A stretch of 64,000 bases of DNA from Nesterenkonia lacusekhoensis (GTDB taxonomy: Bacteria > Actinomycetota > Actinomycetes > Actinomycetales > Micrococcaceae): NCBI RefSeq assembly GCF_017876395.1, contig NZ_JAGINX010000001.1:1240001-1304000 (forward strand). Direction: 5' to 3'. Every line of letters starts with the position of its first letter. Position 1 is the first letter of the stretch. The position numbers and the translations under genes are program-made. Shown here piece after piece: positions 22,059 through 26,845 of this stretch. The notes beneath the pieces are model-generated. The model was not told where the DNA came from. It searched no databases and was given only the letters and a program-made list of their open reading frames with translations.

Positions 22059-23008
22059 CGTGTCTTCCCTTCTGTTGAATCTCCGGGGCCTCGGCTCGTG
22101 GACCGGCGGCCGCGGCCTCTTCCGCGAGCTCGTCTTCGATGTGTGTGGTGCGGCTGATCGCTGATGATCGTCAGGACGTTGCTGAGGATCACCAATCCGA
22201 TCCCGACCCAAGCGATCAGTGGCAGGTCCTCGGAGAGCGCCACCAGTCCGATCAGCGCTGCGAAGAAGGGATGCATGGACATCCCGAGGCCGAAGACCAC
22301 AGGACTGATCCGGCGCAACACGATCAGATCCAGAGAATAGGGCACGGCCGTCGCCAGGATCCCGGCCACCGCGGCGAAGAAGAACGCCTGCGCCGGAGGC
22401 TGAGCCTGCCAGACGATCAGCGCGGCGACCGGAACCGTCACGCAGGCGGAGAGGGTGGTGGCCACTGCAGTCCCCTGGACTCCTGGCAGCCTCTGCCCCA
22501 CCACCCGGTTGGTCACGATATAGCCGGCCCAACACACAGCGGCCAGCACAGCGAAGCTCAGTCCCAACAGATCCGAGGTGGGCCCCGGCCGAGTGAGCAG
22601 CACGACGCCGCACAGCGCCAGTGCCGCGCAGACCGCATCTCTGGGGCGACGCCCAGAGGTCAGCGCCACCGCCAGCGGTCCCAGGAATTCGATGGTCACC
22701 GCCGTTCCCAGGCCCACTCGCTCGACGGCCGCATAGAGGGCAGTGTTCATCCCGGCGAAGAAGAAGGCCAGCAGCGCCAGGGGCCACCATTGGGAACGGG
22801 TGAACTGCCATACTCGGGGCCGGGTCATCGGCAGGAGCACCAGTGCGGCCACCAGCTGACGCACAGCCACGACGCCGACCGGGGTCATCGTGCTGAACGC
22901 CAAGGAACCCACTGCTGCCCCAGATTGGGTGCTCAGGGCACTGGTGGAGATCACCGCGAAACCCCGCAGGGTGCGCGTTCCAGGTGTGCCGCTGGTCATA
23001 TGTGCCAT
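22055..23008 (-). CDS. EamA/RhtA-family metabolite exporter
   Basis: A 317-residue inner-membrane protein with ten helices in two EamA repeats. Repeat 1 spans about residues 15-135 and carries 'TPVGVVAVRQLVAALVL' and 'YAAVERVGLGTAVTIEFLGPL'. Repeat 2 spans about 145-285 and carries 'LLGLSFAVLAAVCWAGYIV' and 'AVPYSLDLIVLRRISPVVFG'. The wording is closest to RhtA-type threonine/homoserine exporters. An Arg/Gly-rich hydrophilic tail follows (after 288). AGGG lies 7 bases before the ATG. Pairing with nitronate monooxygenase could mean joint handling of a toxic small molecule, but no substrate can be deduced. Confidence 0.86.
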   Translation of the reverse strand: MAHMTSGTPGTRTLRGFAVISTSALSTQSGAAVGSLAFSTMTPVGVVAVRQLVAALVLLPMTRPRVWQFTRSQWWPLALLAFFFAGMNTALYAAVERVGLGTAVTIEFLGPLAVALTSGRRPRDAVCAALALCGVVLLTRPGPTSDLLGLSFAVLAAVCWAGYIVTNRVVGQRLPGVQGTAVATTLSACVTVPVAALIVWQAQPPAQAFFFAAVAGILATAVPYSLDLIVLRRISPVVFGLGMSMHPFFAALIGLVALSEDLPLIAWVGIGLVILSNVLTIISDQPHHTHRRRARGRGRGRRSTSRGPGDSTEGKTR

Positions 23009-23132
23009 TCTGGCACCCTGGGACCGCTGCCGAGACGACGCCGGGCCTCAGCGCCGCTGACCAGGCATAACGCCTGCTCTTCTCGCATGACGCCTCCGTA
23101 GGCGCTTACGGCAGGGCACAGAGATCGCGTCG

Positions 23133-23150
23133 ACTCACATTTAACTCACA
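23133..23150 (+). promoter_or_regulatory. Tandem direct repeat, possible response-regulator site upstream of rpf
   Basis: ACTCACA occurs at 23133-23139 and again at 23144-23150, an 11-bp period that puts both copies on the same face of the helix. TATAAC follows at 23158-23163. OmpR-type regulators such as MtrA bind repeats of this layout and control rpf genes in other actinobacteria. No regulator gene lies nearby, so the link is inference. Confidence 0.35.
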
Positions 23151-23232
23151 GAAACTCTATAACAGGACGGTAACGAGCCCAGATCCCCGCGATTCCGGGC
23201 CTCCCGGGGCGACACGGGGGTTCTTGACCTGT

Positions 23233-23495
23233 TTGACGCAACCTTTTCGAGACCTTTTACTGGATTGCGGACATCTTCTGTGATGTCGGCGTAACTTTCG
23301 AGTTCCGCCTCTGACCGGAGCCACTCCGGATCAGATCGCGTCGCAGAAGCTGCAGGAGCCGGCCGCTCCCCATCACCGTCCATAAGGCCGGCTTCCGCGG
23401 ACAGACCGTTGGACACGTGAGGTGAAGCAGGACGGTGACACGAGGAAGACCTGGGAAGGTCTGAGTGGCGGGGGCTTCGATACAACTCCCTGATT
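23233..23495 (+). promoter_or_regulatory. Promoter and structured 5' leader of rpf
   Basis: TTGACG (23233-23238), 17 bases, TTTACT (23256-23261) give a start near 23268 and a leader of about 228 bases. The leader holds hairpins GACATC/GATGTC near 23270-23287 and CCGGAG/CTCCGG near 23320-23334. A further hairpin, AGCCGGCC/GGCCGGCT (23357-23393), has a 21-base loop. Nine loop bases, TCACCGTCC (23373-23381), match GGACGGTGA at 23430-23438 perfectly, which would form a pseudoknot. Last is AGACCT/AGGTCT with a GGGA tetraloop (23447-23462). The remaining part of the 23009-23495 gap holds the direct repeat but no gene. The c-di-AMP riboswitch consensus was not recognised. Confidence 0.5.
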
Positions 23496-24248
23496 ATGCA
23501 GAACACCAAGACTTTCAAGAAGATCCTCGGCGGCGGCATGGCCGCAGCCACTCTGGCCGGCGGCGCCCTCGTCGCACAGGCCCCGGCCGCCTTCGCCCAG
23601 TCTGACTGGGACCGCCTCGCAGAGTGCGAGTCCGGCGGCGACTGGTCGATCAACACCGGCAACGGCTACTACGGCGGCCTGCAGTTCTCGCAGCAGTCCT
23701 GGAACGCTGCCGGCGGCTCTGGCTCCCCGGCCAACGCCTCCAAGGCCGAGCAGATCCGCGTGGCTGAGAACCTGCTCGAGATGCAGGGCTGGGGCGCATG
23801 GCCCGCCTGCTCCGCTCAGCTCGGCCTCTCCGGCCAGCCCAGCGGCGGCGGCGCAGCGCAGGCACCTGCTGAGCAGCAGGCACCTGCTGAGCAGCAGGCT
23901 CCTGCTGAGCAGCAGGCACCCGTCCAGGAGGCCCCCGTGCAGGAGGCCCCCGTGCAGCAGGCACCGGCTGAGCAGGCTCCCGTGCAGCAGGCTCCGGTTC
24001 AGGAAGCACCTGTCCAGGAGGCACCGGCTCAGGACATCCCGGAGCCGACCGAGCCGGAGGCTGCTCCGGAGGCCGATGTTGAGGTCTCCGGGGAGACCTA
24101 CACCATCCAGGAGGGTGACTCCCTGACCAAGATCGCCGATGCGCTCGGCATCGCTGACTGGCAGGACCTGTGGGGCGCCAACGCCGACCAGATCCAGGAC
24201 CCGAACACCATCTTCGTCGGTGATGAGCTGAAGCTCCCCGTCCTCTGA
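23496..24248 (+). CDS. rpf: Secreted resuscitation-promoting factor (Rpf domain plus LysM)
   Basis: A 250-residue secreted peptidoglycan hydrolase. Residues 1-35 form a signal peptide (basic start, AAATLAGGALVAQ core, cleavage after AFA). The Rpf transglycosylase-like domain follows (about 36-112): 'WDRLAECESGGDWSINTGNGYYGG' includes the catalytic Glu of ECESGG, with 'WGAWPAC' closing the fold. A Gln/Ala/Pro-rich linker (about 122-179) is made of near-perfect repeats. A LysM domain (about 202-249, TYTIQEGDSLTKIADALG) binds the wall. Rpf proteins cleave glycan to restart growth of dormant cells. No Shine-Dalgarno is visible at the ATG; TACAAC 10 bases upstream could drive a nearly leaderless transcript as an alternative. 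Confidence 0.92.
   Translation: MQNTKTFKKILGGGMAAATLAGGALVAQAPAAFAQSDWDRLAECESGGDWSINTGNGYYGGLQFSQQSWNAAGGSGSPANASKAEQIRVAENLLEMQGWGAWPACSAQLGLSGQPSGGGAAQAPAEQQAPAEQQAPAEQQAPVQEAPVQEAPVQQAPAEQAPVQQAPVQEAPVQEAPAQDIPEPTEPEAAPEADVEVSGETYTIQEGDSLTKIADALGIADWQDLWGANADQIQDPNTIFVGDELKLPVL
23859..24032 (+). repeat. In-frame tandem repeats encoding the Rpf linker
   Basis: Three 18-bp units (Gln-Ala-Pro-Ala-Glu-Gln) are followed by eight 15-bp units of the form (Gln/Glu)-Ala-Pro-Val/Ala-Gln/Glu. The 18-bp copies are almost identical in DNA. Slippage would lengthen or shorten the linker without breaking the frame. Confidence 0.85.
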
Positions 24249-24263
24249 TCACTCCATACGGCT

Positions 24264-24320
24264 GATCCTCAGTTGGGAAGCCGGACTGCACTCAGCAGGC
24301 CCTCTTCCCAACTGAGGATC
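24264..24320. terminator. Shared hairpin at the convergent rpf/comEC ends
   Basis: GATCCTCAGTTGGGAAG (24264-24280) and its exact complement CTTCCCAACTGAGGATC (24304-24320) form a 17-bp perfect stem with a 23-base loop. It begins 16 bases after the rpf stop and overlaps the last codons and stop of comEC. There is no clear T-run on either side, so intrinsic termination is unproven, but position favours a bidirectional terminator or 3'-end stabiliser. Confidence 0.6.
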
Positions 24321-26845
24321 ACTGTTCCATGCAGATCGGTCCGGTAGGTGACCGCGCCGACCTCCGCCAGGGCATCCAAAATGCTCTGGTCCGGATGGCC
24401 GTAGCGGTTCTCCTCCCCCACCCCGATCAGCGCGACGGCGGGCTCCCTGCTCTTGAGCAGATCGAGTCCGCCGTTCGCGGCACCATGATGGGCGACCTTG
24501 AGCAGATCCACCTCCTGCGGGAGGCGATCCTGCCGCAGCAGCGCTGCGGTCAGCTCCTCCTCCAGATCACCAGTCACCAGAAGCCTCAGCGGATCGTTCG
24601 CGGATCCCGCTGGGGCTTCTGCCGTCTCATAGAGAGACAGCTGGACCACGAGTGAGTTGTCGTTGGGATTGGGGAAATGGCCGTATGCCGACCAGATCCG
24701 GTACGACACCGGGAACGTCTCACCGAGCCTCCCTTCCTGGCCCAGCTCTGCGCGGACTGTGGGAACCTCCTCTCCGATCCCCATAGCCGCAGCCGCATCC
24801 CAGCCGCTGGTGGCTGAGTACAGAACCCGCCCCACCTCGCGTCCACGGACCACGCCCGGCGCACCTGCGTAGTGGTCACGGTGGTCGTGGGTGATCATCA
24901 GCATCTCCACCGCGCTGATGCCGAGATCATCCAAACAGTCATCAGCCGCCTCCGGCTCTTCCCCGGCGTCGATGACCACCGCTGCGTCCTCAGCGGTGCG
25001 GACCACCAGCATGTCCCCTTGGCCCACATCGCAGAGCGCCACCCGCCACTGCTCGGGCAGCCCGCCACCGGCCCAGACCGTTGCTGGCAGCATCAGAGCC
25101 ACCAAGGAGCCCGACGCCGCCCCGAGCACGAGGCCGTGCAGCCACGTGATCTGCCAGGCGCCCCGTCTGACCAGCAGCACGACCAGGATCAGCACCGCGA
25201 GCAGGTAGAGCCCCACCAGGGCCAGGCCGAATCCACCCTGAGGCCACGGAGCAACCGCACGCGGCATGTCCGCTGCGGCCCTGCCGATCTGTCCGATCCC
25301 CGCCGCCGCCCAGCCGGAACACCACAACAGCGCCGCCGACAGCCAGGGCGCAGCGGTGCTGAGCAGCGCTGCGGCTGTCCCCGGCACGGTGACCAGAGGC
25401 AGCAGAGGCCCGGCCAGAATGTTGGCCGGAACGGAGTAGGTCTGTACACCCCCTGCCAACGGCAGCAGGACCGGAACGGCGAAGAGCTGGGCGGAGGCGG
25501 TCAGCGCCAAAGGCGCCGAGAGCATCGCTGGAAGCCACGGGTCCAGCATCTCCTTGATCCGCTGTCCGGCCAGGATGATGCCCAACGTGGCCGCTACGGA
25601 GAGTTGGAAAGCGGGTTCGACGCTGTACCACGGGTCATAGACCAGCAGGATCAGCACACAGAGGCACAGCAGCGCGAAGGAGGCTCGCCCCCGGCCGGCG
25701 AAGACCGCCAGCGCTCCGATGTTCCCCATGACCGCCGCCCGGATCACGCTCGGCTTCGGCTGCACCAGCAGCACGAAGAGCACCGTCCCGAGCAGCAGCA
25801 CCGGCAGAGTGAGCCAACGCGGTGCCCGTACCAGGCGCAGCATGCCCAGCAGCGCCCCGGTGACCAACGCCAGATGCGTACCGCTGACCGCGCTGAGATG
25901 GCTCAGCCCCGAGTCCAACATGGCGTCGCGCAGCTCAGCAGACTGTTGGGAGCGATCGCCGAGCACGATGGCCGGCAGCAGAGCCGGACCGTCAGCCACG
26001 GCATGCTGTGCGTGTTCGACTGTGGCTGCCCGCAGACTGTTGAAGCCCGCAGTGAACTGCGTCCAGCGGTCCGGTGACAGCGCAGTCAAGCCGTCCTGGC
26101 CGAAGGGGAACAGCAGAGCCGTGGCTCGGTCCCCAGACTCAGCAGGAGAGGCCCGCACTGTGCCCCGGTAGCGCTGTCCAGCCACCAGCTCTGTACTGCC
26201 GCTGTCCGCTGAGACCTCGCCGACGGATACGATCAGCACCGCAGCGGCTCCCAGGGCCGCTGCGCCTTCTGAACTGCCTGCACCGTGAGCAGAGTCGGCG
26301 CCGGGAAGCTGCGCGGATTCCACGCTCACCTGCGCCAACAGACGGTCCTCACCGTCGAAGCCCGGACGGTCCAGAAGCTGAGCGTCGCCGTTGACGCGGA
26401 CCACGACCTCGAAGGGGATCTCGCTGGTGACCGCCTCCGTCCAACCGGCCTCTTCCGCCGCACGCTGAGGCGAGGCCGCAGAGAGTGCGACCGTTGCCGC
26501 GATCAGGCAGCACAACACACAGTGGAGCAGCAGATGCCTGCACCAGCCGATGAGGCGGGTATGAGCTCCTCCCGCAAGTCTTTGCATCAGCAGCAGGACC
26601 AAGCCCAACGCCGGTGCTGCGATCACGGCCGTCCAGCCCAGCCTGGCCGCCGCCGTCCACGGCAGGTGGACTGCCGCCGAGGCGGCAATCCATGCGGCCA
26701 GCGCCGCGGGCAGAAGACGCAGATCCAGAGGCCGCAGCCCGGCCTCTGGACGCGGGTCGTTCTGGGCCCTCCGGAATCCCAGGACCGAATCCCGCAACCA
26801 ACCCAGCGTGGAGCTGGCCAGGGCCCTGGGCCGACGACTCACCAC
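24269..26845 (-). CDS. comEC: ComEC/Rec2 competence DNA channel
   Basis: An 858-residue membrane protein that forms the channel for single-stranded DNA uptake. It starts with hydrophobic helices (about 45-130), then an OB-fold-like external domain (DUF4131, about 145-270). The competence core (about 300-530) contains 'DSGLSHLSAVSGTHLALVTG' and 'QPKPSVIRAAVMGNIGALAVFAGR'. A C-terminal metallo-beta-lactamase-like domain follows (about 600-850) with 'DVGQGDMLVV' and the metal motif 'MITHDHRDHYAGAPG', the possible nuclease that degrades the non-entering strand. It overlaps comEA by 7 bases. Its last codons lie inside the hairpin shared with rpf. Whether the strain is naturally competent is not shown by these two genes alone. 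Confidence 0.93.
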   Translation of the reverse strand: MVSRRPRALASSTLGWLRDSVLGFRRAQNDPRPEAGLRPLDLRLLPAALAAWIAASAAVHLPWTAAARLGWTAVIAAPALGLVLLLMQRLAGGAHTRLIGWCRHLLLHCVLCCLIAATVALSAASPQRAAEEAGWTEAVTSEIPFEVVVRVNGDAQLLDRPGFDGEDRLLAQVSVESAQLPGADSAHGAGSSEGAAALGAAAVLIVSVGEVSADSGSTELVAGQRYRGTVRASPAESGDRATALLFPFGQDGLTALSPDRWTQFTAGFNSLRAATVEHAQHAVADGPALLPAIVLGDRSQQSAELRDAMLDSGLSHLSAVSGTHLALVTGALLGMLRLVRAPRWLTLPVLLLGTVLFVLLVQPKPSVIRAAVMGNIGALAVFAGRGRASFALLCLCVLILLVYDPWYSVEPAFQLSVAATLGIILAGQRIKEMLDPWLPAMLSAPLALTASAQLFAVPVLLPLAGGVQTYSVPANILAGPLLPLVTVPGTAAALLSTAAPWLSAALLWCSGWAAAGIGQIGRAAADMPRAVAPWPQGGFGLALVGLYLLAVLILVVLLVRRGAWQITWLHGLVLGAASGSLVALMLPATVWAGGGLPEQWRVALCDVGQGDMLVVRTAEDAAVVIDAGEEPEAADDCLDDLGISAVEMLMITHDHRDHYAGAPGVVRGREVGRVLYSATSGWDAAAAMGIGEEVPTVRAELGQEGRLGETFPVSYRIWSAYGHFPNPNDNSLVVQLSLYETAEAPAGSANDPLRLLVTGDLEEELTAALLRQDRLPQEVDLLKVAHHGAANGGLDLLKSREPAVALIGVGEENRYGHPDQSILDALAEVGAVTYRTDLHGTVILSWEEGLLSAVRLPN

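Follow-up and report, generated by a model that had tools for sequence, protein, structure and literature searches.

The window, i.e. the whole stretch of 64,000 nucleotides that was analysed, derives from Nesterenkonia lacusekhoensis and carries an rpf gene on its forward strand at 23496..24248. The gene encodes a protein of 250 amino acids with matches to PF06737 (5.7e-32) and to LysM (2.1e-9), in the order of a signal-peptide-like N-terminus (judged by eye), a transglycosylase-like domain, a proline/glutamine-rich repeat and the LysM domain. Of the named relatives in a scan of contigs, Nesterenkonia cremea came closest, with 92 % in its best segment. A ComEC-type gene with a metallo-beta-lactamase domain lies convergent to rpf on the reverse strand (24269-26845). 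Between the two genes there is a 17-bp inverted repeat (24264-24280 with 24304-24320), the region 24264-24320 having a terminator-like shape in which the terminator scan found no U-run.

Upstream of rpf a putative promoter was located on the forward strand at 23233..23261, with TTGACG at 23233-23238, a 17-nt spacer and TTTACT at 23256-23261. TTGACG occurs in the rpf upstream regions of all 30 Nesterenkonia genomes and TTTACT, 17 nt downstream of it, in 28 of the 30; a promoter consensus scan gave no promoter-like sites upstream of rpf. We infer that rpf transcription starts near 23268. Several further conserved stretches were observed in this region. A conserved block (23131-23260) lies 5' of the putative promoter, and words of the form ATAACG or GTAACG, resembling response-regulator repeats of the MtrA type, are found in 27 of the 30 Nesterenkonia upstream regions. 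Similar words (TAACGTTTCGATAACA) were seen by eye just 5' of the structured element described below in leaders of genera g22 and g23. GTGATG is likewise present in 27 of the 30 regions, with or without the element, and in the window the stretch where the transcript presumably begins (23269-23300) contains a hairpin-like repeat, GGACATC..GATGTC, followed by a GTAAC word.

The preliminary description of this leader, made from the sequence alone, had proposed that a structured cis-RNA, in which a hairpin loop takes part in a pseudoknot, occupies 23268-23495 directly before rpf. All of its sequences and coordinates are present where it gave them, and the structure itself is borne out by conserved, covarying helices; the interval has to be narrowed, as the conserved element begins at 23342 and the part from 23268 to about 23341 lies outside it. 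The whole structured element, a lysM-Actino-type RNA, extends over 23342..23492 on the forward strand, as do all its parts. Hairpin P2 is formed by AGCCGGCC (23357..23364) and GGCCGGCT (23386..23393), with 8 bp. Its loop contains the PKb 5' strand TCACCGTCC, i.e. UCACCGUCC (23373..23381), which pairs over 9 bp with the PKb 3' strand GGACGGTGA, i.e. GGACGGUGA (23430..23438), 48 bases downstream of the loop strand. A less certain helix, PKa, would join CCCC (23368..23371) to GGGG (23470..23473). The closing helix P1 consists of GAAGC (23346..23350) and GCUUC (23474..23478), the latter 17 nt from the start codon. P3 (23439..23467), which includes AGACCT GGGA AGGTCT at 23447-23462, is a kink-turn-like hairpin with a C-stem CAC/GUG (23439-23441 and 23465-23467), a 3-nt loop GAG, a tandem of G23445 A23446 with G23463 A23464, the pair A23447-U23462, an upper stem (23448-23452/23457-23461) and a GGGA loop (23453-23456). 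The linker that leads up to the PKb 3' strand (23400-23429 in the window) holds an extra small hairpin that appears by eye to be conserved, examples being GUCG/CGAC in g22 and g23 and CCGCC/GGCGG in Nesterenkonia. A conserved short reading frame after GGGAGGG was considered and dropped, the frame not being kept (by eye).

When 23268-23495 was shuffled 5000 times with its dinucleotides preserved, a perfect 8-bp hairpin with a loop of 12-30 nt and a 9-nt loop complement downstream arose in two of the shuffles, and this combination in the window is not due to chance. With only 6 bp and 7 nt required, 186 of 2000 shuffles qualified, and thus only the strict form is striking. The whole leader folded better than its shuffles (z -2.65; 2 of 200 equally good).

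Rpf was present in all 30 Nesterenkonia genomes, and in 18 of them the same fold lies 5' of the gene. Eleven of the other 12 leaders are short and without the element, and one (L069) retains, by eye, only a hairpin-like part; the RNA has apparently been lost or replaced within this single genus. When the 18 element-bearing leaders were aligned with MAFFT (alignment A1), 98.1 % of the cells in P1, P2, PKa, PKb and P3 were paired, and double changes were seen at 11 of 27 pairs (23 cells). None of 500 shuffles matched these numbers of pairs or cells, and slid controls gave 0-2 pairs. P2 and PKb were kept together and crossing, with 96.8 and 97.9 % of cells paired, respectively, and all seven counted pairs of P2 had double changes. 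P1 was paired as GAAG/CUUC in 18 of 18 rows, with one G-U variation. RNAalifold recovered P1, P2 and P3 unaided from the Nesterenkonia alignment; this tool cannot draw pseudoknots, and it paired the PKb 3' strand partly with the linker rather than with the P2 loop. Within the genus PKb was compensated twice: in L047 a C-G pair has become U-A, and in L053 an A-U pair has become G-C; the PKb 3' strand of L053 is misaligned by MAFFT (by eye), and the double-change count still registers its change. Compensatory changes at the 9-bp pairing, on which the preliminary description had staked its proposal, are thus present. Model R1, comprising P1, P2 and P3, matched the 18 rpf leaders in the 30 genomes at E <= 8.6e-16, the next match having an E of 0.08. 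There is no second strong copy of the element in the Nesterenkonia genomes, rpf being its sole location among matches with an E below 0.08.

Outside the genus, R1 applied to 395 genomes of the family gave G192, G263 and G067, each directly 5' of the rpf start; a further match, in G378 (L105), lay inside a coding region and was discarded. An Rpf search of the 395 genomes gave 256 with E <= 1e-33. One hundred further leaders were taken from the best-ranked Rpf matches listed, roughly in rank order and with some skipped, and with L106 and L107 added the set comprised 102 leaders and, Nesterenkonia (g1) being excluded, covered 21 genera. Model R2, comprising PKa, PKb and P3, gave a match in 84 of the 100 at E <= 1.2e-4, always on the sense strand and at the rpf start, and L206, outside this test set of 100, also carries the element, which was found in 85 of the 102 leaders. 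The leaders without the element were L111, L137 (weak, E 0.23), L150 (leader truncated), L159, L164, L165, L168, L176, L177, L178, L186, L187, L189, L190, L192, L197 and L207. The element is dispensable, since 12 of the 30 Nesterenkonia leaders and 17 of the 102 others are without it. In an order-wide scan R2 matched 22 of 297 genomes, namely the own genome, 18 other Micrococcaceae, all with the match 5' of rpf (phmmer E <= 6.2e-32), and three outside the family (L227-L229), whose matches lay in other coding regions and were rejected. The phylum-wide scan gave four of 296 genomes, of which two belong to Micrococcaceae; the remaining two matches (L238-L239) were also in other coding regions and were rejected. 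These wide order, phylum and family scans used strict filters, which may miss weak members. Altogether the element was found in 20 of the 32 Micrococcaceae genera sampled.

The relationship to a recorded RNA family emerged through these leaders. Default Rfam scans did not return a relevant family. RF03090 (lysM-Actino RNA), on record as an orphan candidate for a cis-regulatory RNA, had no match in the window and none in any rpf leader of the 30 Nesterenkonia genomes at E <= 10, and the window does not reach the RF03090 gathering cut-off of 153.8 bits. Permissive RF03090 scans of 20 leaders gave 12 matches at E <= 0.0035 and two at 0.47 and 1.6, six leaders being unmatched; in a second set of seven loci L102 and L104 matched at E <= 0.004, L063 reached only E 3.9 and four other Nesterenkonia loci were unmatched; in a third set 13 of 15 leaders matched at E <= 0.004, the unmatched ones being L112 and L154. 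Six leaders of genus g3, before rpf, scored 158-253 bits, above the cut-off. Model R3 was built from 87 rows, including these six and no Nesterenkonia sequences. Since the selection and alignment of these rows relied on R2, a model that had been exposed to Nesterenkonia, R3 provides strong but not wholly independent evidence. R3 recovered the 18 element leaders among the 30 Nesterenkonia genomes and none of the other 12, and it matched the window with 67.6 bits (E 1.4e-18 in 64 kb). It also found the leader of Arthrobacter sp. SX1312 (L034), which was outside every alignment, with 103 bits just before rpf. Because the intermediate leaders match RF03090 and the model built from them finds the window, we take the window element to be a diverged relative of RF03090. 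The homology via the intermediates and the position before rpf are both results of computation.

The likeness to RF03090 extends to the succession of helices (P1, PKa, the 9-bp PKb, and P3 with its GGGA loop), to a CGCG..GA..GAGCG core and to an end at the gene start. The name lysM-Actino suggests a place immediately 5' of a gene with a LysM domain, and this holds for rpf, which encodes one. There are also differences. In the RF03090 model the 5' strands of PKa and PKb are separated by a long inserted hairpin, which is present in leaders of the L180 type, whereas the window, where there is no room for it, and most relatives are without. P1 of RF03090 is AUGC/GCAU over the Shine-Dalgarno sequence, while the window has GAAGC/GCUUC instead, and GAGCAU was not seen at the ribosome-binding region in any of the 18 Nesterenkonia element leaders. 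The model as printed leaves P2 unpaired; the fold proposed here adds the P2 hairpin, and the loop bases would pair outside it with both helices conserved, which corresponds to the definition of a hairpin-loop (H-type) pseudoknot. What the comparison of leaders adds to the Rfam model is P2, and with it the pseudoknot, the kink-turn-like hairpin, and the pairing of the ribosome-binding site predicted in several genera. The lysM-Actino motif itself reportedly stems from Weinberg et al. 2017. Among titles and abstract openings in the literature no description of an RNA element before rpf in Micrococcaceae was found, and 'lysM-Actino' returned no papers in the literature searched. The main text of PMC2864571 contains none of the terms rpf, resuscitation, Micrococc or Arthrobacter.

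Covariation was assessed on two wider alignments, A2, aligned to P1, P2 and P3 only, and A3, aligned to PKa, PKb and P3, so that in each the remaining helices were not fitted. On A2 the set PKb, PKa and P3 had 149 double-change cells compared to 53 in shuffled data, and a covariation of 0.387 compared to 0.174 (slid controls <= 0.116); on A3 all helices together had 478 double-change cells compared to 171. A tree-aware null, in which substitutions were replayed along the tree, was applied with our own script after the R-scape idea, three junk rows having been dropped from A3. Among all pairs, seven were significant on A3 (five in PKb, one in PKa and one in P3) and seven on A2 (five in P2 and two in P3), all of them within the proposed helices; no PKb pair was significant in this all-pairs test on A2. 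When the same null was applied to the smaller proposed set, two of 11 PKb pairs were significant on A2, where PKb was not fitted. P2 had two of five significant pairs on A3 (unfitted) and seven of seven on A2 (fitted), and the C-stem one of three on A3. P1 had none of six on A3 (unfitted) and one of four on A2, where it was fitted, and PKa two of four on A3, where it was fitted, and none of four on A2. On the sense strand G-U outnumbered A-C by 23:2 and 55:20.

PKb was also tested without alignment and without P2, by comparing how well the stretch that precedes the kink-turn pairs with the region upstream in the same leader and with that of another genus. The own-leader pairing had a genus mean of 23.3 compared to 17.6 for permuted partners, with none of 300 permutations as high, and in 69 of the 102 leaders the own partner outdid 95 % of the partners taken from other genera. 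An earlier run, with a pseudoknot-blind hairpin finder that picked wrong hairpins in several genera, had also placed PKb above genus permutations (17.6 compared to 14.3, 0 of 200). The PKb strands change between genera while their complementarity stays. For PKa the corresponding test gave 16.2 compared to 16.0 (121 of 300 permutations), and in both runs the own partner was no better than that of another genus; the strands themselves vary by clade as CCC/GGG, CACC/GGUG, AUCC/GGAU and CUUCC/GGAAG. P2, PKb and P3 are established by these computations, and PKa, as well as P1 in the version of the window, is less certain, with less support than the other helices. A free-form fold parser was rejected as evidence for being too permissive: it also gave parses in the element-less L059, L064, L065, L066 and L070, and L065 scored 63.1, whereas the highest value among 270 shuffles was 63.0.

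A kink-turn consists of a C-stem, a 3-nt bulge, a tandem of G-A and A-G pairs and a second (NC) stem. In the window, 23439-23467 could be matched by sequence to all of these: C-stem, 3-nt loop, G-A/A-G tandem and NC-stem. Here the motif would be one part of a larger element, and several g22 leaders are without part of the consensus. One hundred leaders were surveyed for the motif, two of the 102 element leaders having been dropped for a length difference. G was found at position 1b in 93, A at 2b in 100, G at 2n in 79 and A at 1n in 89 leaders, and 78 leaders had the full set of four; for each leader whichever of two 3' offsets fitted better was used, which favours the 3'-side counts. The P3 loop was GGGA in 76 leaders, and C-stem pairs 1-3 were paired in 96, 83 and 95 leaders, respectively.

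The start codon follows the P3 stem at a median of 29 nt (18-66), with starts picked by a rule that is wrong for L106 and L107 and perhaps for a few others. GAGCAU precedes the start in 42 of the 102 element leaders, from genera g3, g5, g6, g7, g8, g13, g18 and g31, and in most of these it comes with the Shine-Dalgarno GGAG. In this alignment-free count AUGC lies upstream of P2 in 37 of the 42 leaders with GAGCAU and in two of the 60 without, the leaders being from related species and not independent. A cruder, control-free search for the best helix gave AUGC/GCAU in 15 of 18 leaders of g5, g7, g8, g18 and g31. The predicted P1 overlaps the Shine-Dalgarno sequence in several other genera. The window has no Shine-Dalgarno match of at least 3 nt within 4-17 nt before the rpf start, and a match was absent in all eight g4 leaders. 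Among Nesterenkonia leaders a Shine-Dalgarno match of at least 4 nt was found in all 12 in which the element is absent or reduced (L044, L046, L059, L061, L064-L071) and in six of the 18 with it, again with kinship between the leaders, which are not independent.

We consider it highly probable that the rpf leader is a cis-acting RNA, a diverged lysM-Actino (RF03090) RNA, whose core likely hinders translation until a cell signal arrives. The transcript would fold hairpin P2, the loop of which would pair with the strand just before the kink-turn-like hairpin (PKb) and probably also with the strand just after it (PKa). Through the short closing helix P1 the core would come to lie with its 3' end at the ribosome-binding region, and the folded core would most likely hinder 30S loading on rpf. 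A cell signal, either a small molecule or a protein, may shift the balance of the folded core, the outcome being that a potentially lethal wall hydrolase would be made only when needed. Translation as the level of control, the direction of control and the existence of a ligand are what we infer. Control at the level of translation is favoured because the start codon is close to the P3 stem and a terminator-like site was not found in the scan of 22950-24400; AUGC/GCAU is also P1 of the Rfam model. The point of P1 lying over the Shine-Dalgarno sequence is weakened, as the association of GAGCAU with AUGC is confounded by kinship and P1 of the window differs. Most likely the element controls rpf translation. 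A more specific version, held only tentatively, is a dedicated Micrococcaceae metabolite riboswitch that gates Rpf translation in response to a cell-wall or dormancy signal other than c-di-AMP, with the pseudoknot clamping the kink-turn hairpin.

In another explanation the leader would bind a protein, such as a wall-stress regulator or one that recognises kink-turns, and sense no metabolite. The full kink-turn consensus seen in 78 of the 100 leaders and the lack of a second strong copy in the Nesterenkonia genomes are consistent with such a leader; kink-turns occur inside metabolite riboswitches too, and we know of no protein partner for this element, so that we regard a protein-binding leader as possible but on balance unlikely. 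P2 and PKb might alternatively be two states of a switch instead of one pseudoknot. The nested minimum-energy fold of the leader contains the 9-bp PKb without the 8-bp P2 (-61.3 kcal/mol, compared to -53.9 kcal/mol with P2 enforced), and single-sequence energy therefore cannot decide between a pseudoknot and a pair of alternative folds. The comparison of leaders supports P2 as well as PKb, which are conserved and crossing in the 18 Nesterenkonia rows, and the strand lengths would by eye permit an H-type pseudoknot, which makes alternative states rather improbable.

Transcriptional control, by attenuation or Rho-dependent ending in the leader, has a precedent in the rpfB attenuator of some pathogenic mycobacteria, as described in PMC6009663; the terminator scan and the fact that the element abuts the start codon argue against it here, and we give it little weight. 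It is very improbable that the repeats act at the DNA level as binding sites of a regulator: nothing but the repeats themselves points to this, and the strands are replaced between genera with complementarity kept and G-U pairs favoured on the sense strand. The idea of a diverged c-di-AMP (ydaO) riboswitch arises from the occurrence of that RNA before rpf genes in other actinobacteria, reported in PMC9960051. The preliminary description had not recognised its conserved sequence and thought a different RNA class possible, and in the first respect it is confirmed, as RF00379 had no match in the window or the genome or in any of the 30 Nesterenkonia genomes and no DAC domain (PF02457) was found in the own genome; the class is not wholly undescribed, being tied to RF03090 by the intermediate leaders. 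The folds differ as well. RF00379 was present, with strict filters, in G002, G004, G005 and G006, and in G002 and G004 it lies on contigs other than that of rpf, which there carries the lysM-Actino-type element. We therefore reject a c-di-AMP riboswitch, the probability of which is negligible.

In a survey of 120 genomes the DAC domain was found in 93; among those listed, it was found in none of six Nesterenkonia, one g2 and three g4 genomes, nine of these ten having the element. The domain was unfound in the own genome and in genera g1, g2, g4, g14, g16, g21 and g27, and c-di-AMP synthesis has apparently been lost in seven of the 32 Micrococcaceae genera sampled. The element thus occurs in lineages without a detected c-di-AMP synthase.

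The present analysis widens an orphan motif from the members above the Rfam cut-off to 20 of 32 sampled Micrococcaceae genera, and adds to it a pseudoknot and a kink-turn-like core; in the genomes scanned it also links the motif to a single gene, rpf. Dormancy research still asks what turns Rpf on, and the compact leader offers a handle for probing and for ligand screens. If the tentative riboswitch reading is true, a riboswitch class has so far been recorded only as the narrow orphan lysM-Actino motif. Two known systems invite comparison. The rpfB RNA switch of pathogenic mycobacteria is also a structured rpf leader and has been described as a riboswitch candidate; according to PMC6009663 it is a terminator-based attenuator with stems and a poly-U stretch, present in only some pathogenic mycobacteria, and in this it is unlike the leader in the window. 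RF00379 before rpf and nlpC in other actinobacteria is likewise a cis-RNA 5' of a wall hydrolase gene, and the nlpC c-di-AMP riboswitch of C. glutamicum is reported, in PMC9960051, as likely acting on translation. Its fold is unrelated to that of the rpf-leader element, which as a metabolite riboswitch would be the equivalent, independent of c-di-AMP, of the riboswitch that precedes rpf in those actinobacteria.
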